DNA from: Planctomycetota bacterium | Lineage (GTDB): Bacteria; Planctomycetota; UBA1135; GCA-002686595 | Direction: 5' to 3' | DNA length: 64,000 nucleotides | Assembly (NCBI GenBank): GCA_016795245.1 | Contig: JAEUIA010000064.1 | Location: 92,318-156,317, forward strand | Shown here: in pieces, positions 3,843 to 37,146 of the stretch | Layout of the letters: every line of letters begins with the position of its first letter | How positions within the stretch are numbered: position 1 is the first letter of the stretch | Translations under genes and position numbers: made by a program | Notes under the pieces: model-generated | What the model saw: only the letters and a program-made list of their open reading frames with translations | Told to the model about the DNA's origin: nothing | Databases searched by the model: none

Positions 3843-6196
3843 GAATGCTCGACGCACTCCAGCGTTCACGTCGCACGCGACCGAGCACGGTCGTGCCCCT
3901 CGTTCTGGGCGCCTTGGCCGTGATGGGCTTGATGGCGGCGATCCCCGCCGCGATCGGTCCGCAGGATCAAGGTTCGGCACTGGTCGAGGTGCTCTCGGCC
4001 GGCAAGCGCGACAAAGAGACGCGCACGATCCAAGAGCACATGGACGCGTGGCTCACGTTTTCGAAGGACATCACCGCGATCGCCAGCGCCGACGACGTCG
4101 TGCTCAAGGTGCCGAAGGAATCGGTGCAGAAGCGCCAGGTGCGCCTGGTCGCGGCAGCCGTGGGTCGCACGGTGATCACGCTCACGTACGCCGACAACTC
4201 CACCGAGCAATTGGTGTTCACGGTCAAGCGCGACATGTCCGTGCTCGAAGCCGCGATGCACAGCATCCATCCGAGCATCTCGGTCGACGTCGCTCCTGAC
4301 CGCGATGCGATCGTGCTCACGGGCATGGTGCCGGACGGTTCCTATTCCACCCGCGCCGCACAGGCCGCGCTCGATTACGCGAACTCGAGCCGCCCGGACC
4401 AGAAGGGGACGAGCGGCAAGGTCATCAACCTGATCCGCGTCCAGGAAGTCGCCTCGAATCTGGAGCAACGCCTGCGGTCCGAGATCGAACTCTTCGGCGG
4501 CCAGGAAGTCAGTGTGCGCCGCATCCAGCAAGGCAGCGCCGCCGACGACGCGCGCGACATCTTCGTCGTCTCGGGCACGATGCCGACGAACGCCGGGGTC
4601 GAGCGCGCGACGACGCTGGTTCGTTCCGCCGTCGGTGACCGCGAACTCGCGGCGCCGCGCGTCATCGTGCTCATGAACAGTGTCGAGGTCGGCGAAGCGA
4701 TCGAGCAGGTCATCGAGCGCGCCATCCACGAGCAAGTCAATGCGCCGCGCGTCAAGGTCTCGCGCGTCGCGGCGGCCGATCCTAGCGGTGACTCGGACAT
4801 CCTGGTGCTCACGGGAACCGTTCCGAATCAGACGGCCCTCGTGCGGGCCCTGACGCTGGCGTCGAAGGTCTTCCAACAGCAGTTGATCGTCAAGCGCAAG
4901 CGCGCCGGCGAAGACAAGCGCACCACGGAGGTCACCGCAGGCGGTTCGACGATCACCTCGGAGACGATTCCGTTGCGCGTCCAATCCTCGAGCAACGATA
5001 TTCACGCTACGGCTGATGAGTCGGGCGCGCTCCGTCGCAACACCGGCGGGCAGCCCGGTCAGAACAGCGACTCGGCCCTGCTCGGCGTGTTCGGTGCCGG
5101 CGGCCAGAGCTCGATCGGCGGTTCGGACTTCAACAGCCTGATCAACAACCAGCTCGACACGAACATCGCGCGCGCCAAGGCCATCGAACTGGCCGAGGGA
5201 CGCATCATCTCGTTCCTGGTCGTCGAGGACCTCCCGCAGGTTCGCATCGACATCAAGCTGTACGAGCTCAATCGCACGGCTCTGCTCGATTGGGATTCGT
5301 CGCTCAACAAGCTGGGCGTCGCGGATTTCAACACGAACGGTATCGACCCAAACAACGTCGCGCGCCGCGCCGACGGCTCGGTCCTGACGAATGCGAACGG
5401 CGACCCCGTCTTGGGTTCGCGCAACACGGACATCGCCAACGTCCTCAACTTCCTCGAAGGCGGCTTCGGCAACACCTTCCAGGTCGGCGGCGGTCACTTC
5501 GCGGTCGACGCGGCGTTCCGCCTGCTCGAAACGCAGGGCATCGCGCGCGCGATCGCCAGCCCGTCATTGACGGTGCTGTCGGGTGAACTCGCCGCGTTCG
5601 GTGACGGCGGATCAGTCAGTGTGCGCACGAGCATCACGACCGGCGTCGGCATCAACAGCGATGTCGGAGTGTTCTCGTCCGTACAGAAGCTGTCGTTCGG
5701 CGTACAGCTCGCTGTCCGTCCTCTGATCGACGAACACGGCTACATCACGCTCGACGTCGTGCCGGCCGTCTCGAACCCGGACTTCGAACTGACTCAGCTG
5801 GTACGCACCAGCACAGGCACGCCCCAGGAAACAATCGCCTTCGCCGAGCGTTCCATGCGCACCAGCGCACGCCTGCGCGACGGCGACACGCTCCTGATCG
5901 GCGGTCTGCAGGACCGCTCGCGCAAGGATCGCACGACGAAGACGCCGGGTCTGGCGAGCCTCCCGCTCATCGGCTGGATGTTCCACGACAAGAGCTTCGA
6001 GGACCGCGACCGCGAGCTCGTGATCTCCGTCAATCCTTCGATCGTGCGTGAAGCGCCGAAGGAAGCGCGTCTGTGGGCCTATCCCAGCGCGACTGAAATG
6101 ATGCCGCGGCCGCCGAAGAAACCCGCTCCGCCGCCTGCCCAAAAGGGCGAAGCGACGGACGGCTCGAACACGGCGTCCAACGCCGAGGCGAAGTGA
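3839..6196 (+). CDS. rcpA: Tad pilus outer-membrane secretin (CpaC/RcpA)
   Basis: Outer-membrane channel for the Flp pilus, 785 aa and long for the family. A basic N-terminus and hydrophobic stretch (about residues 19-42) form the export signal. A pilus/secretin N-terminal region follows, with BON-like repeats containing sequence such as DAIVLTGMVPDGSYSTRAAQ and DILVLTGTVPNQTALVRA, so the periplasmic part is expanded. The C-terminal secretin domain holds LDVVPAVSNPDFELTQ, then RDGDTLLIGGLQDRS and TPGLASLPLIGWMF, the classic secretin ending, and finishes with a Pro/Lys-rich tail. I chose the ATG at 3839 because GGAGG lies seven bases before it; an in-frame ATG at 3833 is too close to that site. 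Confidence 0.92.
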   Translation: MRMLDALQRSRRTRPSTVVPLVLGALAVMGLMAAIPAAIGPQDQGSALVEVLSAGKRDKETRTIQEHMDAWLTFSKDITAIASADDVVLKVPKESVQKRQVRLVAAAVGRTVITLTYADNSTEQLVFTVKRDMSVLEAAMHSIHPSISVDVAPDRDAIVLTGMVPDGSYSTRAAQAALDYANSSRPDQKGTSGKVINLIRVQEVASNLEQRLRSEIELFGGQEVSVRRIQQGSAADDARDIFVVSGTMPTNAGVERATTLVRSAVGDRELAAPRVIVLMNSVEVGEAIEQVIERAIHEQVNAPRVKVSRVAAADPSGDSDILVLTGTVPNQTALVRALTLASKVFQQQLIVKRKRAGEDKRTTEVTAGGSTITSETIPLRVQSSSNDIHATADESGALRRNTGGQPGQNSDSALLGVFGAGGQSSIGGSDFNSLINNQLDTNIARAKAIELAEGRIISFLVVEDLPQVRIDIKLYELNRTALLDWDSSLNKLGVADFNTNGIDPNNVARRADGSVLTNANGDPVLGSRNTDIANVLNFLEGGFGNTFQVGGGHFAVDAAFRLLETQGIARAIASPSLTVLSGELAAFGDGGSVSVRTSITTGVGINSDVGVFSSVQKLSFGVQLAVRPLIDEHGYITLDVVPAVSNPDFELTQLVRTSTGTPQETIAFAERSMRTSARLRDGDTLLIGGLQDRSRKDRTTKTPGLASLPLIGWMFHDKSFEDRDRELVISVNPSIVREAPKEARLWAYPSATEMMPRPPKKPAPPPAQKGEATDGSNTASNAEAK

Positions 6197-6206
6197 GGTG
6201 CACGCC

Positions 6207-6896
6207 ATGATGAAACTACATTCATTCGCCGTCCTCGGCCTGCTGCTGCTGGTCTCGAGTTGCACCAGCTACTCGTTCGGCCACCGCAGCACCAACACGA
6301 ACCCCGACGAGCGCCTCGCCAAGCTCATCCGCGCCTACGAATCGTCGCGCAAGAGCAACGGCGAGAACGCCAACGAGATCCTCGTCGACGCGGAAGCCGC
6401 GTGGGTGGAGATCGAGCGCCTGGCGTTGGAGTTCCCGCGCCACCCGCCGACCTTGATGGCCAACGCCGTCATCGCCTACGACGAGCGCCAGCCGCTGAAG
6501 GCCAAGAGCTATTTGGACGCTCTTTTCTCGGTCGAAAACTCACATCCGGACGGCGCGGTCTTGCGCAGTCGCATCGCCATCGACGAGGGCAACATGCCGC
6601 TCGCGCGGCGCGTGCTCGAGTTGCAGATCGCGTACACGCCGTACGAATCCGCCGTGCACGAGGCCTACTCGTCGGTGCTCTACATGAGCCGCGACCTGGA
6701 AGGCGCTGCGCGCGAAATCAACCTGGCGGAGCAGCACGGTGCGCCTGCGTGGCGCGTGGCCTTCAACCGCGGCTTGATCGCCGAGGCCATGGGTCGCGCA
6801 GCCGACGCGCAGCGCTACTACCAGGCCGCTCTGGACGGAAATCCGGACTTCGCTCCTGCTCGCGCCAGATTGGCCGGACAAAAGGCGGGATCCTGA
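6207..6896 (+). CDS. tadD: TadD-like TPR lipoprotein
   Basis: Predicted outer-membrane-associated lipoprotein of 229 aa. The signal peptide ends in the lipobox LVSSC (Cys19 from this start). The mature part is built of helical TPR-like repeats: segments around AVIAYDERQPLKAKSYLDALF, ARRVLELQIAYTPYESAVHE and GRAADAQRYYQAALDGNPDF. In Tad systems such a protein (TadD) helps pilus biogenesis, probably as a pilotin-like scaffold next to the secretin. The start at ATG 6207 follows GAGG by eight bases; a GTG at 6198 is also in frame. The role is inferred from position between the secretin and flp genes, because TPR repeats alone are not specific. Confidence 0.8.
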   Translation: MMKLHSFAVLGLLLLVSSCTSYSFGHRSTNTNPDERLAKLIRAYESSRKSNGENANEILVDAEAAWVEIERLALEFPRHPPTLMANAVIAYDERQPLKAKSYLDALFSVENSHPDGAVLRSRIAIDEGNMPLARRVLELQIAYTPYESAVHEAYSSVLYMSRDLEGAAREINLAEQHGAPAWRVAFNRGLIAEAMGRAADAQRYYQAALDGNPDFAPARARLAGQKAGS

Positions 6897-6902
6897 TACA
6901 AT

Positions 6903-6946
6903 CCTGCTCAGTCCCTGCCCGGCTCGGCCGGGGGGTGGTGAGCAGG
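6903..6946 (+). other. Intercistronic stem-loop before flp
   Basis: CCTGCTCA (6903-6910) pairs perfectly with TGAGCAGG (6939-6946), and the loop contains a further CCCGG/CCGGG stem. No T-rich tail follows. The hairpin sits seven bases after the TadD-like stop codon, within the 138-base spacer before the pilin gene. It could end part of the upstream transcript or protect a processed pilin mRNA, so that pilin is made in excess over the assembly proteins. The function is inference. Confidence 0.55.
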
Positions 6947-7034
6947 CCACCTATTGGAAACGGTGTGGGTCAAGGCAGCACGACCCACGTCGCACGAACG
7001 TTCGGCTGTCAATTTGAATCGTAGGAGTCATCCA

Positions 7035-7367
7035 ATGAAGCTCATGCAGAAGTCCAACCGCCAGAAGCGCGGTGCCGCGTTGGTCGAATACGCCCTGATC
7101 GTCGGTGGTGTCGCGCTCGTCGCAGCCGCCGCCGTCTCGATCTTCGGTCACAAGACCGCCAGCCTGATCGGCGCCAGCGCGTCGATCCTCCCCGGCGCCC
7201 AAGCGAGCGACAACGGCACGATCGCCGCCGGTCGCATCATGGACACGGTCAAGGACGCGAACGGCGTCATCACGATCAGCCCGGGCAACAACAACAACCT
7301 CGGCAACAACCTCGGTCTGACGCAACAGCAGATCGACGCCCTGGTCACGGATCCGAACAACAACTGA
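7035..7367 (+). CDS. flp: Flp/Fap-type pilin with long Asn-rich tail
   Basis: Major pilin subunit, 110 aa from the ATG preceded by TAGGAG. The N-terminus holds the class III prepilin site KRG followed by AALVEYALIVGGVALVAAAAV, with the glutamate and tyrosine of the Flp signature. A TadV-type peptidase would cut after that Gly. Typical Flp pilins are around 55-70 residues. This one continues for some 60 further residues rich in Asn, Gly and Thr (GNNNNLGNNLG and DPNNN at the end), which may form a surface-exposed domain. No prepilin peptidase gene is in the window. The gene closes the Tad cluster and has its own terminator. Confidence 0.93.
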   Translation: MKLMQKSNRQKRGAALVEYALIVGGVALVAAAAVSIFGHKTASLIGASASILPGAQASDNGTIAAGRIMDTVKDANGVITISPGNNNNLGNNLGLTQQQIDALVTDPNNN

Positions 7368-7430
7368 TCGGGTTCTGATCCGCCAGCAGGGACGCGCAGC
7401 GAGGGGATCACTCGCGCAGCCTGAAATCGA

Positions 7431-7476
7431 ACGACCTCGTTCCCTTGGCAAGGGGGAGCGAGGTCGTTTGTCTTTT
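7431..7476 (+). terminator. Rho-independent terminator after flp
   Basis: The inverted repeat ACGACCTCG (7431-7439) / CGAGGTCGT (7459-7467) has a C/G-rich upper stem, and TTTGTCTTTT follows at 7467-7476. This is a standard intrinsic terminator 63 bases after the pilin stop. It also separates the Tad operon from the converging gene on the minus strand. Confidence 0.88.
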
Positions 7477-7506
7477 CGACGACGGCGAGGCTGCAGGTCG
7501 GCGCGT

Positions 7507-26062: not shown

Positions 26063-28102
26063 CTATGGTCTGTAGACATGGCCCGCCCGATAGGACGCGA
26101 GATGAAGATCGACTCGGGCTGTGAACGCCGGGTCGTTGGACGCCAGCGCCTGTGCGCGCGAGCGCTCGGCCGCGCGTACGGCCTCCTGGAAGCGGCCTTC
26201 CTCGGCGTGCAACACGGCGTAGATGAGCGACAGGATGTGATGCTCATCCCCGATCAACGCTCGCGCGCGATCGGCAGCAGTGCGCGCTTTTTCCAGGTTG
26301 CGCAACTTGGGGTCGGCCTGCACGGAGCGTATCCAAGCCAGCGTCAAGAGAGCATTCGCGTCGTTGGGGGCGATCGCGATCAGCCGCTCGTTGTACGCGA
26401 GTGCCGTCGCATCATCGCCGCGCATGCTCGCCACGGTGCCGAGCCCGCGCAGCGCGTCCACGTCATTCGCGTCGATTACGAGCAGCTTCTCGAAGATCGC
26501 TGCTGAGTCGGCGAGCCGCTGCGTGAGGCCGTAGAGCGTTCCGAGCTGCAGCAAAGTCGCTCGGAAACGCGGGTCCAGGCGTAGCGCGGACTCGAAAGCC
26601 TTCGCCGCTTCATCCGCCTTGCCGGTCCGAATGAGTGCGAGCCCGAGATTGTGGTAGGCGAGCACGGACTCACGCACGCCGAGCTCCGCACGGAACGCAG
26701 AGATCGCTTCCTCGATACGGTTCTCGCGACTGAGGAGCACACCCAAGCCCAGATGCGCGTTGGGCAATTTGGGCACGAGGGCCAGCGCCGCGGTCAGATG
26801 TTCGCGCGCGAGCTGCGGATCACTGTCGATCACGGCGTTGGCCAGGATCTGGTGCGCGAGCGCATTGCGCCCGTCGGCGACCTGGAGCATGTGTTCCGCG
26901 AGCGTGCGACTGTCCTTCCAGCGCAGCGCTTGCGCCCCGGCAGTCCACGCCAAGAGCAGGCTTGCGATCACCGCCAGACCCATGAGCGGTGCGCGCCATG
27001 CGGGACGCCGTTCGATGAGCTCGCGTGCCGACATCACGACCATCAACGCCAGACCCACGGACGGCAAGTACGAATAGCGATCCGCCATCGATTGACCGCC
27101 GACCTGGACCAGTCCGAGCACGGGCACGAGCATCCCGATGAACCAACACCATCCGACGCTGAGCCAGGGGCGTTGCTTGCGCCAGGTCCAGACCGCGTAC
27201 GTGATAATGCCGATGATGATCGCAGCATCGACGGGCAGGAGCGCGCTCTCGAACAGATCGAACGGGTAGTAGGCCGACAAGTCGGTCGGCCAGATGTGCT
27301 TCCCGAGGTAACGGACGAGTGCAACCGGCGCGTTGGCGAGTCGTTGCATGAACGAGATTCCCTGCGCCGTCGTCATCGCACCTTCGCCGCGCTGCACGAC
27401 GTACGTCACGACGCAAGAGATCACGGACAGCGCCGCCAGCGGAATCTTCTCGCGCCAACGCCAGCCACCGCGCGCCAGCGGCCACACGTCCAAGAGCAGG
27501 AGCAGGAACGGGAGCGTGACCAGCATCGGCTTGCTCATGAGTCCGGCTGCGAAGGCCAGGAAGAGGAGCACGTACCGCAGCGCCCCCGGCGATTCCGTCC
27601 AGCGTTTGTAGGCCAGCAGCGTGGCCCAGAAGAACACGCCCGACAAGACATCCTTGCGCTCCGAGATCCACACGACCGATTCGACGCGCAAGGGATGGAT
27701 CGCGAAGAGCAGCGCGACTACGAAACTCGCCCACAGCGAGCGCGTGAACCGCGTCAGCGTGACGAAGGCGAGCACGGCTGCGAGTGCGTGCAGCACGACA
27801 TTCACTGCGTGATGGGCGGCAGGATTCACGCCGAACACCTGCACATCCAGCATGTGTGTCAACGTCGTCAACGGATGCCAGTTGCCCGCGTGCGCTCCGC
27901 TCCAGGCCCACACGAATCCGTCCCACGACAGCCCCGCGAGCACGTGCGCGTTCTTGAACACGTAATCGGGATCGTCGAGCAGGATCCAGCCGTTGCCGAT
28001 GGCCCCGCCGAAGGTCGCGAGCACCGCGACGACGAGGACGCAGCTGAGCAAGAGCCTGCGCCTGCTTTCGCTGTCCGTGGCCTGAATCCGCGACGGTTCC
28101 AT
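26063..28102 (-). CDS. TMTC-like multi-pass membrane protein with C-terminal TPR repeats
   Basis: A 679-aa membrane protein. About ten hydrophobic segments fill the first 400 residues, including HPLRVESVVWISERKDVLSGVFFWATLLAY, the hallmark of the bacterial relatives of TMTC O-mannosyltransferases. The early acidic segment ILLDDPDYVFKN corresponds to the glycosyltransferase-C loop with the acidic pair. After residue 400 the chain turns to TPR repeats (NALAHQILANAVIDSDPQLAREHLTAALALVPKLPNAHLGLGVLL and more). A dolichol-phosphate- or polyprenol-sugar-dependent protein glycosylation role is the family-level inference; no experiment defines bacterial members. The start ATG gives a normal cytoplasmic N-terminus. 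Confidence 0.85.
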   Translation of the reverse strand: MEPSRIQATDSESRRRLLLSCVLVVAVLATFGGAIGNGWILLDDPDYVFKNAHVLAGLSWDGFVWAWSGAHAGNWHPLTTLTHMLDVQVFGVNPAAHHAVNVVLHALAAVLAFVTLTRFTRSLWASFVVALLFAIHPLRVESVVWISERKDVLSGVFFWATLLAYKRWTESPGALRYVLLFLAFAAGLMSKPMLVTLPFLLLLLDVWPLARGGWRWREKIPLAALSVISCVVTYVVQRGEGAMTTAQGISFMQRLANAPVALVRYLGKHIWPTDLSAYYPFDLFESALLPVDAAIIIGIITYAVWTWRKQRPWLSVGWCWFIGMLVPVLGLVQVGGQSMADRYSYLPSVGLALMVVMSARELIERRPAWRAPLMGLAVIASLLLAWTAGAQALRWKDSRTLAEHMLQVADGRNALAHQILANAVIDSDPQLAREHLTAALALVPKLPNAHLGLGVLLSRENRIEEAISAFRAELGVRESVLAYHNLGLALIRTGKADEAAKAFESALRLDPRFRATLLQLGTLYGLTQRLADSAAIFEKLLVIDANDVDALRGLGTVASMRGDDATALAYNERLIAIAPNDANALLTLAWIRSVQADPKLRNLEKARTAADRARALIGDEHHILSLIYAVLHAEEGRFQEAVRAAERSRAQALASNDPAFTARVDLHLASYRAGHVYRP

Positions 28103-28283
28103 GCCGACAATCGTTCAGGGCCTGCACCCAAGAATCCAGACAAGAATCGCGGAGCGATCTCCGACCGGTCGCTGGAACACGCGTTGCGATGGGCACAAGT
28201 CTGGATCGGATCGCCGCGATCGAGTAACTCGGGCCTCAGCGCTTCAGTCCGAGCGCGCGCGAACCCTCACTCAGGAGTCGAAC

Positions 28284-29633
28284 ATGTCGAAAGCCGTGCA
28301 GCAGGAAATCGAGCACTTCATGGAGGGCGTCGTGAACCGCAATCCCGATGAGCCGGAGTTCCAACAGGCCGTTCACGAGGTGGTCGAGAGCGTGATGCCG
28401 TTCTTGCTCGAGAACAAGAAATACAAGGAAGCCCGCGTGCTCGAACGCATGACGGAGCCCGACCGCGTGATCATCTTCGCGGTCCCGTGGGAGGACGATT
28501 CGGGGGAGTTTCGCATCAATCGCGCGTACCGCGTGCAGTTCAACAGCGCGATCGGACCGTACAAGGGCGGGTTGCGCTTTCATCCCTCGGTCACCCTCAG
28601 CGTGCTGAAGTTCCTAGGCTTCGAACAGACCTTCAAGAACAGCCTTACCGGTCTGCCCATGGGCGGAGGCAAGGGTGGCTCGAACTTCAACCCGAAGGGA
28701 CGCAGTGATCGCGAGGTGATGCGCTTTTGCCAGTCGCTCATGACCGAGCTCTCGCGACACATCGGCGAGGATACGGACGTGCCGGCCGGCGACATCGGCG
28801 TAGGCACGCGCGAGATCAGCTACCTGTTCGGGCAGTACAAGCGCATGAGCAATCGCTTCACCGGCATTCTGACGGGCAAGGGACTTTCGTTCGGCGGCAG
28901 TGCCGTGCGCAAGGAAGCCACCGGATACGGAGCCGTGTATTTCGCGGACGATGTCATGCAACACCACGGTGACGGTCTGAGCGGCAAGGTCGCAGTCGTC
29001 TCCGGATCCGGAAACGTGGCGCTCTACTGTATCGAGAAGCTCGTGCAGCTGGGCGCGAAAGTCGTCAGCGCATCGGACAGCGGGGGAACCGTGTACGACC
29101 CGCAAGGTATCGACCCGGACAAGCTCGCCTGGCTCAAGGACCTCAAGGAGAACCGTCGCGGGAGAGTCGCAGAGTACGCCGAGAAATTCGGCTGCGAATT
29201 TCGCGCGGACGCGACACCTTGGGACATCGAGTGCGACCTGGCGTTCCCGTGCGCGACACAGAACGAGCTCGACGCGACAGCCGCCCAACACCTCGCGAAG
29301 AACGGCGCCAAGCTGGTCGTCGAAGGCGCCAACATGCCGACGACAGCCGAAGCCATGACGGTCTTGCGCGAGGCCGGCGTGCTCGTGGCGCCCGCCAAGG
29401 CCGCGAATGCCGGTGGGGTCGCTGTGTCCGGACTGGAGCAGAGCCAAAATGCGCTGCGCATCTCCTGGCCGCGCGAGGAGGTCGACGAGCGCCTGAAGAA
29501 GATCATGAAAGAGATTCACCGCCGCTGCGTGGAGCACGGATCCACGAACGGCAAGGTCGACTACGTCCACGGCGCCAACGTCGCGGGCTTCGTCAAAGTC
29601 GCGGACGCGATGCTCAGTTACGGAATCGTCTAG
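28284..29633 (+). CDS. gdhA: NADP-specific glutamate dehydrogenase
   Basis: Hexameric glutamate dehydrogenase of 449 aa that fixes ammonium into 2-oxoglutarate. The substrate-binding and catalytic motifs are intact: GPYKGGLRFHPSV (Lys94), LPMGGGKGGSNFNPKGRSD (Lys130) and DVPAGDIGVGTREI (catalytic Asp). The Rossmann part begins KVAVVSGSGNVALYCIEKL, where GSGNVA is the dinucleotide-binding loop. Length, the PKGRSD phrase and the overall match to E. coli-type GdhA point to NADPH use. The ATG follows AGGAG by six bases. It is a single gene; no clear promoter or nitrogen-control site was seen in the 181 bases upstream. Confidence 0.96.
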   Translation: MSKAVQQEIEHFMEGVVNRNPDEPEFQQAVHEVVESVMPFLLENKKYKEARVLERMTEPDRVIIFAVPWEDDSGEFRINRAYRVQFNSAIGPYKGGLRFHPSVTLSVLKFLGFEQTFKNSLTGLPMGGGKGGSNFNPKGRSDREVMRFCQSLMTELSRHIGEDTDVPAGDIGVGTREISYLFGQYKRMSNRFTGILTGKGLSFGGSAVRKEATGYGAVYFADDVMQHHGDGLSGKVAVVSGSGNVALYCIEKLVQLGAKVVSASDSGGTVYDPQGIDPDKLAWLKDLKENRRGRVAEYAEKFGCEFRADATPWDIECDLAFPCATQNELDATAAQHLAKNGAKLVVEGANMPTTAEAMTVLREAGVLVAPAKAANAGGVAVSGLEQSQNALRISWPREEVDERLKKIMKEIHRRCVEHGSTNGKVDYVHGANVAGFVKVADAMLSYGIV

Positions 29634-31074: not shown

Positions 31075-31485
31075 TTATCGTCGGGCTCGCCGCTTTGGCG
31101 TGCGCCGCGCTGAACCGGACTGCGGCTGGCCTCGAACTGAAATGGATGCGACTCGCGACCTGCGTGCGTGTGTCGCCAGGTCGACCAGTTCGCGCACCGT
31201 TCGGTGCGATTCGAGCGGATGCCGCAGCGGCTTGTCGAGGTGCAGGTCGTAGCCGTTGCGCCGACCGTGCCGTTCACGCGTGACCAGGCCCTCTTCCTCG
31301 AGGTCGGCCAGGATCTTCTGCACCGCGCGCTCGGTGATGCCCACGCGCGCCGCGACCTCGCGCAGGGTCTGCTCCGGGTTTCCCGCCAGGCACACCAGGA
31401 CGTGCGCATGGTTCGAGAGGAACGTCCAGCTGTGCCCGCCGGCTGGGGCGGTGCGGCGAGAAGGGGGCTTGATGCGGCTTGACAT
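31075..31485 (-). CDS. Winged helix-turn-helix transcriptional regulator
   Basis: A 136-aa DNA-binding protein. After a basic N-terminal tail comes [64 protein letters not shown], a MarR/ArsR-type winged helix with the recognition helix near [16 protein letters not shown] and the wing [10 protein letters not shown]. The C-terminus is Arg-rich and disordered-looking. No sensor domain is visible, so the ligand is unknown. The ATG at 31485 was chosen because a longer frame lacks coding character upstream and because a repeat-rich candidate operator sits immediately before it. It is followed by the CaCA antiporter gene, a natural target. Confidence 0.85.
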
Positions 31486-31511
31486 ACGAACTGTGATTCG
31501 TGTATTCGTGT
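31486..31511. promoter_or_regulatory. Candidate operator: inverted plus tandem repeats
   Basis: ACGAA (31486-31490) and TTCGT (31497-31501) form an inverted repeat six bases apart. Overlapping its right half is a perfect tandem repeat of ATTCGTGT (31496-31503 and 31504-31511). The cluster lies directly upstream of the winged-helix gene and before purE on the other strand. Autoregulation by the adjacent regulator is inferred. Confidence 0.55.
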
Positions 31512-31514
31512 TCC

Positions 31515-31542
31515 ATAGTAGCAACTGATCCGCAGTTTCCAA
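31515..31542 (-). promoter_or_regulatory. Candidate promoter for the regulator/antiporter genes
   Basis: On the minus strand TTGGAA (31542-31537) and TACTAT (31520-31515) are 16 bases apart, each four of six to the sigma70 consensus. Transcription would start near or in the candidate operator repeats, so a bound regulator would block it. Confidence 0.4.
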
Positions 31543-31555
31543 GTCGATCCACGTC

Positions 31556-32059
31556 ATGAATTCATCCAAATCCGAAGGCGCCCCCCTGGTCGGCGTCGTC
31601 ATGGGCAGCGCCTCCGATTGGCCGACGCTGAAGCACGCGGCCGATTGCCTCGTCGAGTTCGGAGTGCCTCACGAGGCGCGAGTGGTTTCCGCTCACCGCA
31701 CGCCTGAACTCCTGAGGACCTACGCGCGCGAGGCCGAGTCGCGCGGACTGCGCTTTTTGATCGCAGGCGCAGGCGGTGCCGCTCACCTGCCCGGAATGCT
31801 CGCCGCCTGGACGGCGCTTCCGGTGCTGGGTGTGCCGGTCGAGAGCAAGATGCTGCGCGGCGTCGATTCGCTGTTGTCGATCGTGCAGATGCCCGCGGGA
31901 GTTCCGGTGGCGACCTTCGCGATCGGGGATCCGGGCGCACGCAACGCCGCGCTGTTCACAGTTCGCGCACTCGCGCGCGAATGGCCGGAATTGCGCAAGA
32001 AGCTCGACGCGTTTCACGAAGCGCAGGCGAGCAAGGTCCTCCAGGCGAAATTGCCGTGA
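31556..32059 (+). CDS. purE: N5-carboxyaminoimidazole ribonucleotide mutase
   Basis: Class I PurE of 167 aa. It rearranges N5-CAIR, made by PurK, to CAIR in de novo purine synthesis. The class motifs are present: [16 protein letters not shown] (AIR phosphate-binding loop), VVSAHRTPE with the catalytic His, [16 protein letters not shown], and [36 protein letters not shown]. Length is normal for bacterial PurE. The following purK start overlaps its stop (GTGA), so both are made together. It begins a four-gene operon that continues with a bicarbonate transporter. Confidence 0.97.
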
Positions 32060-33225
32060 GTCAGGTTTTCCTGCCGGGTGCGGTCCTGGGAGTGCTGGGC
32101 GGCGGACAACTCGGGCGCATGTTCGCGCTCGCGGCACGACGCATGGGATATCGCGTCACGGTGTTCGCGCCTGATGACGACACACCTGCCGGCCAGATCG
32201 CAGACCGTGAGATTCGCGCGGAGTACGAGGACCTCGCAGCGGTCGAGCAATTCGCCCGCGAAGTGGACGTGGTGACGTTCGAGTTCGAGAACATCCCTGC
32301 CGCAACGGCCGAGGCGGCGGCGCGTCACGTGACCGTTCGCCCGGCCGGCACACTCCTGCATCAGACACAGGATCGCGCGCGCGAGAAGCGTGCGCTCACC
32401 GAGCGGGGCCTGCCGGTCGCGACCTTCGCAATCGTGACCACGGACGCAGACCTCGAACCCGCCGCTCGCACCGTCGGGTGCCCGGCAATCCTGAAGAGCA
32501 CGGCTTGGGGCTACGATGGTCGGGGCCAGCGTCGCGTCATGCGCGTCGAGGACGTGGCAGCGCAGTGGCGCACCCTGGATTCGCAGCCGTGTGTGCTGGA
32601 ACGTTTCGTGCCCTTCGTCGCCGAGTTGTCGGTCGTCGGTGCGCGCGGGAGCGACGGGGAGATCGTGCTGTACGAGCCGTTCCAGAATCGCCACCGCGAT
32701 CACATCCTGGATGTGACGGTCTGTCCTGCTCCGATCTCCAGCAGGGTACGCGAGGACGCGTTGGCGATCGCGCGCGAAGTGCTGACGCGCTTCGAGGTGG
32801 TCGGCGTGCTGTGTGTCGAGCTGTTCCTGCTCGCGGACGATTCGCTCGTGGTGAACGAGTTCGCCCCGCGTCCGCACAACTCCGGTCACGTCACGATCGA
32901 CGCCCATGCTTGCAGCCAATTCGAACAGCAAGTGCGCGCTGTGTGCGGCTTGCCGTTGGGCTCGACCGAGCGCACTGTGCCCGCCGCGGCGATGGTCAAC
33001 CTGCTGGGTGATCTCTGGGATGGAGGTACGCCGAATTGGACAGCCGCCCTTGCTGACCCGCGTGTGCGACTGCATCTCTACGGCAAGCAAGACGCCCGAA
33101 GCGGTCGCAAGATGGGGCACTTGTCCGTGGCGGACACGACCGCCGAAGCCGCTGAGCGCCGTGCGCTCGATGCGCGCTCCGCGCTCTCGGGAAGCAGGAA
33201 GGCGCCCGCGTGGACTGGTCGCTGA
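32056..33225 (+). CDS. purK: N5-carboxyaminoimidazole ribonucleotide synthase
   Basis: ATP-grasp enzyme of 389 aa that joins AIR with bicarbonate, using ATP, to give N5-CAIR for PurE. The N-terminal Rossmann-like start is [27 protein letters not shown], followed by FEFENIPA. The ATP-grasp part has [38 protein letters not shown], and [32 protein letters not shown]. The GTG start overlapping the purE stop gives a usual N-terminus. The 3' end overlaps the next gene (sbtA) by 16 bases. Bicarbonate is the direct carbon substrate, which explains the next genes in functional terms. Confidence 0.97.
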
Positions 33226-34196
33226 TCTCGGGGAACCTGCTCACCCCGCCCATCTTGTTCTTCTGCCTGGGTGTGGCTGCAGCGCTCTTGCGGTCCGACC
33301 TGGAGGTCCCGCAGCCGATCACACGTGCGCTCTCGCTCTATCTGCTTTTCTCGATCGGCATGCACGGCGGTGTCGAATTCGCGTCTGCCGGATTCGGGTT
33401 CACGGCACTCAAGCCGCTCTTGGCGGGCATCGCGGCCAGTGCGCTCTTTCCGTTGGCGACGTTCGCGCTGCTGCGGCGCAAGTTGGGCCCGGCTGACGCG
33501 GCCGCGATCGCGGCGACGTACGGATCCATCTCGGCCGTCACCTTCGTGACGGCGTGCAGCTTCCTCCAAGACCGCGAGATCGCCTGGTCCGGCAACATGG
33601 TCGCCGCGATGGCGCTGATGGAGTCACCTGCGATCCTCGTCGGCGTGCTGCTCGCGCGACGTTCCGGCGTCGGCAACAAGGCCGGAGCAGGCGGCCATGG
33701 CTCGATCCTGTCGCTGTCGCGCGAGGCCTTCCTCAACGGCGCCGTGTTCCTCCTGATCGGAGCACTCGTCATCGGTGCGCTGGTCGGCGAAACTGGATGG
33801 AAGAGCGTCGCGCCGTTCGCACACGACCCGTTCAAAGGCGTGCTGTGCCTCTTCCTGCTCGACATGGGCCTCATCGCGGGGAGACGCCTGGGAGCGCTGC
33901 GCGAATCCGGAGGAATGCTCCTCACCTACGCCATCTGTGCGCCGCTCGTGCACGCAGCCATCGCCGTAGGCGCGGCGTATGCTCTGGGCCTCGGACGCGG
34001 TGATGCGCTCCTGTTGACGGTACTCTGCGCTTCGGCGAGCTACATCGCCGTGCCGGCGGCGATCCGTTCGTCACTGCCGGAAGCCAATCCAAGCCTGTTC
34101 TTGCCCATGTCGCTGGCCATGACCTTTCCCTTCAACATCTCGGTGGGTATCCCGCTCTACATGGCCGTGATCGACGCAACCTGGAGGGCGGCATGA
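33210..34196 (+). CDS. sbtA: Sodium-dependent bicarbonate transporter SbtA
   Basis: Membrane protein of 328 aa with about ten hydrophobic segments arranged as two inverted repeats. The family features are visible: LSLYLLFSIGMHGGVEFASAGF near the N-terminus, ATYGSISAVTFVTACSFLQ (the sodium/bicarbonate-site serine region), AMALMESPAILVGVLLAR, and a C-terminal LCASASYIAVPAAIRSSLPEANPSLFLPMSLAMTFPFNISVGIPLY. In cyanobacteria SbtA imports bicarbonate for carbon fixation. This organism shows no carbon-fixation genes here, but the transporter overlaps purK, a bicarbonate-consuming enzyme. The start is GTG 33210. Confidence 0.95.
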   Translation: MDWSLISGNLLTPPILFFCLGVAAALLRSDLEVPQPITRALSLYLLFSIGMHGGVEFASAGFGFTALKPLLAGIAASALFPLATFALLRRKLGPADAAAIAATYGSISAVTFVTACSFLQDREIAWSGNMVAAMALMESPAILVGVLLARRSGVGNKAGAGGHGSILSLSREAFLNGAVFLLIGALVIGALVGETGWKSVAPFAHDPFKGVLCLFLLDMGLIAGRRLGALRESGGMLLTYAICAPLVHAAIAVGAAYALGLGRGDALLLTVLCASASYIAVPAAIRSSLPEANPSLFLPMSLAMTFPFNISVGIPLYMAVIDATWRAA

Positions 34197-34486
34197 TCCC
34201 GGTCAAACGCATCGAGATAGTTGTCGACGCGCCGCACAGCGAATCGATTACGCGCTTGCTAGGGAGTCACGGCCTGGAGGGATGGACTCTCTTGCGCGGC
34301 GCAAGCGGGATGGGACAGCGCGGACGCCAGCACGACGACGACATCACCGGTGTTTCCAGTAATCACCTGATCGTCACGACCTGCACTCCCGAGAAGCTCG
34401 CGCTCTTGTTGGAGGACTTGCGCGCCATGCTCGCGAGATACGGCGGCATGTGTCTCGTGAGCGATGCGCACTGGCTGCGCCACTGA
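34193..34486 (+). CDS. sbtB: PII-like SbtB regulator
   Basis: A 97-aa protein of the PII superfamily. It begins VKRIEIVVDAPHSESITRLLGSHGLEGWTLLRGASGMGQRGRQ, with the strand/helix order of PII and a T-loop around GMGQRGRQHDDD. It then continues SSNHLIVTTCTPEKLALLLEDLRAMLARYGGMCLVSDAHWL. SbtB trimers bind nucleotides such as AMP or ATP and control SbtA. The redox-active Cys-containing C-terminal loop of several cyanobacterial SbtB proteins is not seen. The start overlaps the sbtA stop (ATGA), so transporter and regulator are made together. It ends the operon and is followed by a strong hairpin. Confidence 0.9.
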   Translation: MIPVKRIEIVVDAPHSESITRLLGSHGLEGWTLLRGASGMGQRGRQHDDDITGVSSNHLIVTTCTPEKLALLLEDLRAMLARYGGMCLVSDAHWLRH

Positions 34487-34495
34487 GGCCGCACG

Positions 34496-34522
34496 CTGCT
34501 GCGTGCTCGGACCACGCAGCAG
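34496..34522. terminator. Hairpin between sbtB and the converging propeller gene
   Basis: CTGCTGCGTG (34496-34505) pairs with CACGCAGCAG (34513-34522) around a seven-base loop. A run of T's is lacking, but the perfect ten-pair stem in the 53-base gap between converging genes suggests a terminator for one or both. Confidence 0.6.
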
Positions 34523-34539
34523 TTGAAACTCGATTCCAC

Positions 34540-37146
34540 TCAGGGCGTCGAATCGCCGAACAGGCCCTGCAGCACCAGGTCCCCGTTCTTGTTCATACCC
34601 GTTTCGAAGGGCAGATCCGCAACCGAGTGACCGCCGGCGGTTTCGACCAGCAGCACGAGGACAGCGGGCTTGGCGATCAAGGCCGCGCTGGAGTACGAGT
34701 TCGCGCCCTTCAGGCGCAGCCAGCCGGATTCGTGCGTGGACGCGCCGAGGATCTCGTTCGAGGCATGGTTGGTGCTCACGAGGAAGCTGTGGTTGAACAC
34801 GCCGGAGATGTCGGAGAGGCGGCGCTTCGCCCAGCACTGGAATGTCGTCTGGCCGGAGAACGCTTCCTCGTTGTCGTTGTAGGCGAGGAAGTCGACGGTA
34901 GCCGTGAAGTTGCCGCCGCCGCTGAGGTTCAAAAGGATGAGTTCGCTCACGGCCTTGAAGCTCTGTCCGAGGAAGCGCGGCACGAGCATCTCCTCGCCGA
35001 CGCACGTGTACTCGAGCCCGTTCAGATCGCGCAGCCCGTCGTTGTCGTGGTCCGTGGCCGAGCCCTCCTCACCGATCCCGAGGAACGTGAACGGGTTGGT
35101 GCCGTACGACAGCGACTGAATGCCGTCGATGATCAGCGACTGACCGATCAGGTGGTTGTGCACGATGGCCGCGCCGGTCGTCTTGTGCTTGGCGAACACG
35201 TACACGTAACCCTGAGCGAAGTTCGGATTGTGCGCCGACGTGACGACTGAAAGCGTGTCGCGCGGCGTCAGGGTGTGCGTGCGGTTGTATTCCAGGCAGT
35301 TGAGTTGCGTTCCCGTCGGACCGAAGCGGCCGATGTAGACGAATTCCACATTCACATCCGAACCCAACTCGGTCGCGTTCGTGACGGTGAGCAACGTCAT
35401 GTCGCCCAGACGGTTGTCGAACTCCGGGAACACCAGCAAGCTGCCCGGTGTACGGACGCCGACCGGGCAATCGTCCGACGGGCCGGGCCCGCCGATGGGT
35501 TCGATCGTGAGATCGAACAGGATCGGAGTCGCCGTCGACGCCGCCGGACGCGTCATGTTGACGCGCACCTCGACGAAGCGCCCGAAGATGCCGGTGAAGG
35601 CCACGCCGTTCTGAGCGGGCTGGAACGCCACGGCGGAAAGCGCCGCGGCGTTGTCGGACGCGCGGAATTCGACCGTGAGGCCGGTCGTCGCCGGCACGCT
35701 GGCGTTCCACGAAATCTTGCCGTACTGCGTGTTCGCCACTCCGCTGTCGTACGTGACCTGCCAGTATCCGCCGGCGTTCAAGTTCACGAACGGCGCGATG
35801 CCGGTCATGTCGCTGTAGTCGTAAGGCACTGCGTTGCGTCCGAGCGGCACGGTCAGATCGACAGCGCCTAGTCCGTCGCCGCCGCCGTTGGGATCGATGC
35901 GCTTCGCCGTGTTCGAGAGCGTGCACGTCACCCACACCTTGCCGGCGCGGTCGACCGCGAGTCCGCGCGGGCTCTGACCGTCGGCGCCCAGGTCGATCGT
36001 CTTGAGGATGTTCCCGGCGTTGTCGAGGCGCGTCACGTTCTGTCCGAAGCTGTGATCGACCCACACGTTGCTGTCGATCGGCGTCACGCACACGGAGCGC
36101 GCACCGCCGGCGCCTCCGGAGGGTTTCGGGAACCCGGCCGCGATCGTGCCGTTCGGCAGGATCTTCGTGACCGTGTTCTGGATGAACTGGCAGATCCAGA
36201 CGTTGCCGGCCGGATCGAGGCCGAGCCCGTGGTTGCCGGGGACCGGAATGCACAGCGACGCGGCGGTGCCGAGGTCGTAGCGCATGACGGTGTTGTCGGC
36301 TTCCGAAGTGGACCACAGGACGTTGTTGCCGTCGACGACGCCGCCGTGACCGCCGCAAGCAGGGGCTCCGAACGTGGACAAGAATGCGCCGTTCGTCCCG
36401 CGCAGCTTGTCGAACGAGGTCGGGACGAACGGATAGCCGCCCACGAACACGTCATCGTTCGCATCGATGGACACGTGGCGCACGTTGCGGCCGTTGGTGC
36501 GCTGGAAGACGAGGATCGCTTCGTCGACTGCGTCCTGCACGATGCCGTCGGCGCCGCCGTCTCCGTCCGTGATGTTCGGCCAAGGCAGGATGTCGCCCAA
36601 GCCGCGCGAGGTGCGGATCAGTCCGTCGCCGTTGCGGTCGACGCAGGTGTTGAAGCGGAACGGACCCTTCAAGTAGAGCCCGTTCGCATCCGGGACGCCG
36701 TTCGCATCCGTGCGCACGCCGCCGATGCAGATGCCGATCTTGACCACCGAGCCGCGTTGACCGGGCAGGCCGGTGACGGTCGACGCCTCGTCGCGGTTTC
36801 CGACCCAGACGTTGCCTTGCGAATCGACTGCCGTGCGCGAAGGACTGCGCGCCAGTCCGTCCGGCGACGTGGCGTACTCGCCGATGACCGCGCCCGTGTT
36901 CGTGTCGATGCGGATCAGCGAGCCGTTCCCTGAAGCCGCGACGTGGATCAGCGGCAACGGACCCGGCTGACCGGCGACGTTCAACTGCAACTGGTCGGGA
37001 ACCGCATCGTGGTTGACGTTGACCAGTGCACCTTCGTCGAAATCGGCATTGGTCGTGTACGTGCGCGCCTGCTGCGCTTGCGCGTCTCCCGCCAGTGCGA
37101 GAGCAGCCATGGCTGCAAATACGAAGATGCGCTGAGACGGAATCAT
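34540..37146 (-). CDS. Large secreted beta-propeller (NHL/Vgb-like) protein
   Basis: A secreted protein of 868 aa from the ATG that starts MIPSQRIFVFAAMAALALAGDAQAQ, a clear signal peptide. An upstream in-frame ATG would precede it by 55 non-family residues. The N-terminal half has repeated phrases of the type SRTAVDSQGNVWVGNRDE, then GNNVLWSTSEADNTVMRYDLGT and SPRGLAVDRAGKVWVTCTLSNTAKRIDPNGGG, the NHL/streptogramin-lyase-like (Vgb) blades. The C-terminal half contains beta-sandwich-like stretches and ends in a region (GGHSVADLPFETGMNKNGDLVLQGLFGD) of no known family. Binding of an extracellular ligand or adhesion is plausible, but no catalytic motif was found. Confidence 0.8.
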   Translation of the reverse strand: MIPSQRIFVFAAMAALALAGDAQAQQARTYTTNADFDEGALVNVNHDAVPDQLQLNVAGQPGPLPLIHVAASGNGSLIRIDTNTGAVIGEYATSPDGLARSPSRTAVDSQGNVWVGNRDEASTVTGLPGQRGSVVKIGICIGGVRTDANGVPDANGLYLKGPFRFNTCVDRNGDGLIRTSRGLGDILPWPNITDGDGGADGIVQDAVDEAILVFQRTNGRNVRHVSIDANDDVFVGGYPFVPTSFDKLRGTNGAFLSTFGAPACGGHGGVVDGNNVLWSTSEADNTVMRYDLGTAASLCIPVPGNHGLGLDPAGNVWICQFIQNTVTKILPNGTIAAGFPKPSGGAGGARSVCVTPIDSNVWVDHSFGQNVTRLDNAGNILKTIDLGADGQSPRGLAVDRAGKVWVTCTLSNTAKRIDPNGGGDGLGAVDLTVPLGRNAVPYDYSDMTGIAPFVNLNAGGYWQVTYDSGVANTQYGKISWNASVPATTGLTVEFRASDNAAALSAVAFQPAQNGVAFTGIFGRFVEVRVNMTRPAASTATPILFDLTIEPIGGPGPSDDCPVGVRTPGSLLVFPEFDNRLGDMTLLTVTNATELGSDVNVEFVYIGRFGPTGTQLNCLEYNRTHTLTPRDTLSVVTSAHNPNFAQGYVYVFAKHKTTGAAIVHNHLIGQSLIIDGIQSLSYGTNPFTFLGIGEEGSATDHDNDGLRDLNGLEYTCVGEEMLVPRFLGQSFKAVSELILLNLSGGGNFTATVDFLAYNDNEEAFSGQTTFQCWAKRRLSDISGVFNHSFLVSTNHASNEILGASTHESGWLRLKGANSYSSAALIAKPAVLVLLVETAGGHSVADLPFETGMNKNGDLVLQGLFGDSTP

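Follow-up and report, generated by a model that had tools for sequence, protein, structure and literature searches.

We report a set of four overlapping genes, purE-purK-sbtA-sbtB, in a 64,000-nucleotide stretch of Planctomycetota DNA (contig JAEUIA010000064.1, positions 92,318 to 156,317; called the window throughout), in which two enzymes of purine synthesis are joined to an SbtA-like transporter and an SbtB-like PII-type protein. Adjacency of sbtA to purE and/or purK recurs in the phylum and in a family of Pseudomonadales, and we consider it probable that the operon serves as a low-CO2 purine module, driven by ATP and bicarbonate, which stands beside a PurK-independent route. The components are known, and the purEK-sbtAB combination was not found described: a search of the open-licence literature returned no account of the arrangement, which does not show that none exists.

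Gene content of the purEK-sbtAB operon

The host genome (G000) is 4.47 Mb in size and 92.55% complete, and the window is part of its contig C38. All four genes lie on the plus strand (Table 1), with the coordinates given in a preliminary description made from the sequence. The end-to-start overlaps claimed there were borne out by the window sequence, namely GTGA (4 bases) between purE and purK, 16 bases between purK and sbtA, and ATGA (4 bases) between sbtA and sbtB, and the four gene identities were confirmed by Pfam and NCBIfam matches above cut-off. PurK carries the ATP-grasp (PF02222) and PurK_C (PF17769) domains and passes its equivalog cut-off, and the argument that this enzyme consumes bicarbonate holds. 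The best relatives of PurE in the PDB are class I enzymes; the entries 3rg8 and 2h31, which we take to be class II, were far weaker.

Table 1. Location and assignment of the features discussed (window positions unless another locus is named)
Feature	Position	Strand	Assignment
purE	31556-32059	+	N5-carboxyaminoimidazole ribonucleotide (N5-CAIR) mutase, class I-like; TIGR01162 199.8 bits (cut-off 149.6)
purK	32056-33225	+	GTG start; N5-CAIR synthase (HCO3- + ATP + 5-aminoimidazole ribonucleotide, AIR); NF004677 470.6 (cut-off 441)
sbtA	33210-34196	+	GTG start; SbtA-like, Na+/bicarbonate transporter superfamily, SASYIA subfamily; Sbt_1 PF05982
sbtB	34193-34486	+	SbtB-like PII-type protein, 97 amino acids; no CGPxGC R-loop
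Winged-helix gene	31075..31485	-	MarR_2/HTH_24-like, predicted regulator; Pfam MarR_2 36.6 bits (cut-off 27)
Inverted repeat ACGAA-N6-TTCGT	31486..31501	.	Predicted operator; abuts the winged-helix ATG on its upstream side, between that gene and purE
Second purE of G000	L144 (contig C136) 5240-5743	-	Overlaps the end of purC

The SbtA-like protein matched Sbt_1 at 372.5 bits (cut-off 27) over positions 1-307 of the 308 of the profile, and is thus full length. NCBIfam gave no match for it, and its predicted structure matched solved SbtA structures far above every other family. SbtB matched both P-II (PF00543; 37.7 bits, cut-off 25) and DUF190 (35, cut-off 23.4), and its sole NCBIfam match, PG0541_fam, scored 31.6, below the cut-off of 45. 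The SbtB model was confident (predicted local distance difference test score 91.3) and indicates the ferredoxin-like fold of PII proteins, with CPII and SbtB as the top fold matches and CPII 5d4o as the best PDB relative; several of these nearest CPII structures are bound to ADP, AMP or bicarbonate. The redox R-loop CGPxGC is absent from the window SbtB, which ends at residue 97, and no CGP was present in 32 aligned rows.

Recurrence of the linkage

Sbt_1 matches were found in 18/81 genomes of the family of the window, 25/154 of its class and 66/392 drawn from the phylum, with 65 of the last 66 exceeding the cut-off. In one family of the phylum, SbtA proteins reach 79% identity to the SbtA of a named Candidatus Brocadia record. 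PurE and PurK were then sought in 80 genomes; of the 82 distinct ones with an Sbt_1 match, two weak or broken cases (G273 and G497) were left out. On the same strand, purE and/or purK adjoined sbtA in 20 of these 80 genomes, which belong to 7 families, and the window and the 19 other linked loci were read individually. The adjacency is thus not confined to a single genome, a possibility that the preliminary description had raised. Random placement of purE and purK predicts about 0.4 adjacent cases in 80, an estimate that ignores shared ancestry.

Three gene orders were seen. The order purE-purK-sbtA occurs in the window and in G009, G068, G069, G070, G257, G264, G290, G300, G332 and G413, and with a gap of 1 kb in G318; purK-purE-sbtA occurs in G018 and G072; and sbtA-purE-purK occurs in G134, in G342 (0.3 kb gap) and, with a shortened sbtA, in G133. 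Of the remaining genomes, G065 has purK-sbtA where its contig ends, G261 has purE-purK-sbtA in broken form, and G410, which gave no PurK_C match, carries purE-sbtA-sbtB. A P-II-type gene comes after sbtA in the window and in the linked genomes G009, G264, G300, G332 and G410, and a more distant P-II-type gene does so in G065, G069 and G070; SbtB after sbtA was not detected at the other linked loci of the phylum.

Outside the phylum, Sbt_1 was present in 26/206 genomes of the Pseudomonadales family of G505 (the genome of locus L039), and 13 of the 26 showed linkage, 12 as purK-purE-sbtA-sbtB and one as sbtA-purE-purK. Among the best 80 named sbtA loci, linkage in some form was seen in three: L039; L052, with purK at a contig end and a winged-helix gene between purK and sbtA; and L107, where one gene separates purE and sbtA. 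L052 and L107 stand outside the counts of 20/80 and 13/26. The PurK-like match at L098 is weak and on the opposite strand, and was not counted as linkage. When linkage was mapped on the SbtA tree, at least 16 changes were required, a figure in which the fast tree method and partly short flanks leave error; linkage is a minority state, gained or lost several times.

Two of these loci have further features. At L150 (G133), positions 5063-5413 (-) hold an sbtA remnant of 116 amino acids in which both ends of the family are recognisable and whose overlap with purE is preserved. At L159 (G410, an anammox-like genome), purE-sbtA-sbtB is preceded by a gene resembling acetyl-CoA synthase/CO dehydrogenase by eye (4784-7506, -).

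Two kinds of purE

Across the 81 family genomes, purE without purK and purE-purK are nearly mutually exclusive. A purE of at least 196 bits (PF00731) was found in 38 genomes. PurK_C accompanies it in 37, and in the remaining one, G044, purE lies at a contig end. Another 38 genomes had only a purE of 168-191 bits, and none of these had PurK_C. PurK was called by PurK_C alone, so that a PurK lacking this domain would be missed. Five genomes held neither kind, and the four that held both (the second kind at 180-194 bits) were that of the window, G068, G069 and G070, all with sbtA-linked purEK. Among the 80 genomes examined for linkage, 13/20 linked and 0/60 unlinked ones carried a second full-length purE. 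Of 14 further purE copies fetched, 9 adjoin purC, as does that of the window's genome, and one (G413) is itself part of a purEK pair. This division into purK-less and purK-linked purE, as read from the genomes, appears to be new here.

The second copies resemble class I PurE. For the second PurE of the window's genome, an assignment as class II AIR carboxylase is not supported by sequence, the best PDB match being 3trh and the class II entries being weak. In the PurE tree the purK-less copies did not form one firm clade (base support 43), and L169 and L172 fell on the purK side.

A divergent winged-helix gene and a palindrome

A predicted winged-helix regulator is encoded divergently from purE, with its start taken at ATG 31485 because a start further upstream, at the ATG of 31602, would extend the frame into purE. 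Relatives lie beside purE or sbtA at L151, L152, L154, L139, L140, L142 and L052. The gene diverges from purE in the window, G257, G264 and G290 and from sbtA in G417 and G450, and it follows sbtB in G259. Since it accompanies sbtA even where purEK is absent, the gene arrangement suggests a regulator tied to the transporter, with purEK a recruit to its regulon. A specific regulator family was ruled out: 7956 of 7999 scored homologue candidates pass, and the family is therefore broad.

Between this gene and purE lies the palindrome ACGAA-N6-TTCGT, which occurs once as an exact copy in the window (0.08 expected). Exact copies were present at three of the seven other regulator loci (G257, G417 and G450), in each case between the winged-helix gene and sbtA or purE, within a total of 1,425 bases of promoter region where 0.0007 were expected; the palindrome had been spotted by eye in these same regions and then counted. 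G417 and G450 share a genus code and look like near kin, a further limit of this result. We regard the palindrome as notable for its place only, and its position beside a divergent winged-helix gene appears, on sequence, to be new here. Together with the purC-linked second purE elsewhere in the genome, the regulator and the palindrome are additions to the preliminary description.

Just downstream of the winged-helix gene is a gene of the Na+/Ca2+ exchanger type (PF01699; 30104-31054, -). Further away, 28101-29633 (+) resembles an NADP-type glutamate dehydrogenase by eye, its true start likely lying inside the open reading frame. Rfam and tRNA scans across the 64 kb window gave no matches.

Genomic context of the transporter subfamily

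Neighbouring genes were clustered at 136 sbtA loci, and ten representatives were named with Pfam; the counts are rough because simple gene calling produced spurious genes where loci were GC-rich. Recurring neighbours of the subfamily include genes for carbonic anhydrase, SulP, RuBisCO and shell proteins, of which the first three point to inorganic carbon as the substrate. Bicarbonate as the putative substrate of SbtA is thereby supported by gene context as well as by the predicted fold. Two genomes of the family place a beta-carbonic anhydrase gene at purE-purK, overlapping purE in G052 (L254) and directly before the pair in G055 (L261); such arrays are a different way of supplying the bicarbonate-using step of purine synthesis. 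At L058, L102 and L141, a gene of the isocitrate/isopropylmalate dehydrogenase type lies at most three genes from sbtA; L058, a Sulfurovum record, was one of the Pfam-scanned representatives.

Discussion

The preliminary description proposed that sbtAB feeds bicarbonate to purine synthesis under feedback from the adenylate pool, and the evidence supports this in part. The SbtA-like protein would import bicarbonate with sodium, PurK would spend it and ATP on the carboxylation of AIR, and the resulting N5-CAIR would be turned into carboxyaminoimidazole ribonucleotide by PurE. SbtB, placed on the cytosolic face of SbtA, would throttle the transporter according to adenylates, and perhaps to bicarbonate as CPII does; by analogy with its relatives, such adenylate feedback is plausible. 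The divergent winged-helix protein would control the operon through the palindrome. The second, purC-linked PurE might cover AIR carboxylation directly from CO2 when this is plentiful, which we propose solely because it has no PurK partner.

Several archaea have class I-like PurE but no PurK, which has been attributed to high CO2, and the E. coli PurE can function without PurK at high bicarbonate (PMC3261824, excerpted text). Because of this report of PurK-free PurE at high CO2 or bicarbonate, we infer by analogy that the PurK-free route may suit CO2-rich and the sbtA-linked route CO2-poor conditions. A more elaborate version, in which the cell switches between a cheap PurK-free PurE and an ATP-paid PurE-PurK equipped with a pump, an adenylate/bicarbonate sensor and a dedicated repressor, is possible, and we hold it only tentatively.

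Several observations weigh against the operon being a low-CO2 purine module, and some of them favour other explanations. Linkage is the minority state, since 60/80 phylum genomes with sbtA lack it, as do 77 of the best 80 named loci; in the family of a Chitinophagaceae genome, Sbt_1 was present in 43/294 genomes and none of 30 fetched loci had purEK within 1.5 kb. A scan of 31380-34620 for sigma-70-like promoters found none. The frequent separation of sbtA from purEK, and the established need of other carboxylases for bicarbonate, would suit a transporter of general bicarbonate or sodium/pH homeostasis whose place in the operon only couples its level to growth demand. The three gene orders, the tight overlaps and the parallel beta-carbonic anhydrase-purE-purK array single out the PurK step, and we judge this explanation unlikely, though it survives best among the alternatives.

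The transporter itself differs from the characterised cyanobacterial protein. In Slr1512, main-chain atoms of F110, G111, A112, A320 and S322 bind Na+. Docking placed HCO3- at the side chains of S114, Y140, S324 and S327, whose replacement by alanine lowers transport to 10-40% (PMC8352866). The corresponding window residues are Y104, G105, S106, C273 and S275 for Na+, and S108, M134, S277 and A280 for HCO3-. S108 and S277 are invariant across 53 subfamily proteins; Y140 and S327, two of the four published HCO3- ligands, are replaced by M134 and A280, and the window SbtA does not have the full Slr1512-type set of side chains. As A280 is also invariant in the 53 members, the window protein is assigned to the SASYIA subfamily, not to the Slr1512 type. 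No proven function was found for this subfamily. An alpha-cyanobacterial SbtA paralogue is without proven transport (PMC10117731, excerpted text), and SbtA of Prochlorococcus MED4, which we infer from other Prochlorococcus records to belong to the SASYIA subfamily, had no detectable activity in a test (PMC4275256, excerpted text); the window SbtA shares 47% identity with a Prochlorococcus member of the subfamily.

The two differing ligands would also suit a carrier of formate or a different small carboxylate, working in either direction, with purine synthesis served or protected through that anion. Shewanella SO_3758, which shares the SASYIA motif, has been linked to formate tolerance, which is raised by A269T (A276 in the window), and its authors lean to efflux (PMC12093963, excerpted text). 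The partners found are genes for PurE/PurK, carbonic anhydrase, SulP and RuBisCO, and the window PurK scores as PurK (470.6 against a cut-off of 441) and far below the PurT cut-offs in the NCBIfam comparison, partners of the PurT type not having been searched for; formate or another small carboxylate as the substrate is distinctly improbable.

The operator and the carbonic anhydrases add further points against the low-CO2 module. Four of the seven other regulator loci (L152, L154, L142 and L052) have only looser resemblances to the palindrome. Nor is it rare by number: in the 2.04 Mb of fetched loci 1.4 copies are expected, and the four exact copies counted there, a single site retrieved twice accounting for two of them, do not exceed chance. 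Varying the spacing from 3 to 10 gave 0, 0, 2, 3, 1, 0, 0 and 0 copies in the loci and 0, 0, 0, 1, 1, 0, 1 and 0 in the window. A role of SbtA as substitute for beta-carbonic anhydrase is not supported in the family, as a strong match to this enzyme (at least 97 bits) occurs in 14/18 genomes with SbtA and 38/63 without (Fisher p 0.27), and the window's genome itself has a short beta-carbonic anhydrase-like protein, a weak match with CMDSR and HHTDC stretches seen by eye. Finally, it is very improbable that the main role of the PII-like protein is to regulate PurK/PurE or some other target, with the transporter as its membrane anchor: PII proteins do have several targets and sbtB is last in the overlapping array, but an sbtB-cluster P-II-type gene is the first gene after sbtA in 57/136 loci, most without purEK.

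The low-CO2 purine module would resemble several known systems. Cyanobacterial Slr1512-Slr1513 is a Na+/HCO3- symporter with its PII-like regulator; the window pair shares about 25% identity with it and differs in the two replaced ligands, in its 97-residue SbtB without R-loop, and in lying in an operon with purEK instead of having a carbon-concentrating role. CPII of Thiomonas intermedia, a PII-like protein that binds ADP, AMP and bicarbonate and is presumably carboxysome-associated, is closest to the window SbtB in solved fold and sequence (26% identity). Bacterial purEK operons share the 4-base overlap of PurE and PurK genes; the window differs in continuing into sbtA-sbtB and in being preceded by the divergent winged-helix gene and palindrome. 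Another parallel is human and involves SLC4A7, which we take to be a transporter unrelated to SbtA. The mTORC1-SLC4A7 axis raises bicarbonate import for nucleotide synthesis and likewise ties it to de novo purine synthesis, under translational control and with no operon (PMC10912719, excerpted text). For autotrophs, a review of the dissolved inorganic carbon toolkit treats SbtA-family transporters and PurK as separate low-CO2 traits, and its excerpted text draws no link between sbtA and purEK genes (PMC10880623).

Bicarbonate import has been studied mostly as a tool of autotrophs. If our reading is true, a step of purine synthesis would draw on a dedicated carbon source under CO2 scarcity. In the tentative switchable version, inorganic carbon would also be a nutrient whose use in nucleotide synthesis is controlled, as happens in cyanobacterial carbon fixation. 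Repeated linkage of a transporter to purEK would mean that a carbon supply can be dedicated to one anabolic step, would account for the two kinds of purE retained by some genomes, and would assign Sbt_1 proteins a testable role beyond carbon fixation. The substrate of the SASYIA subfamily could also be probed with a simple growth assay.
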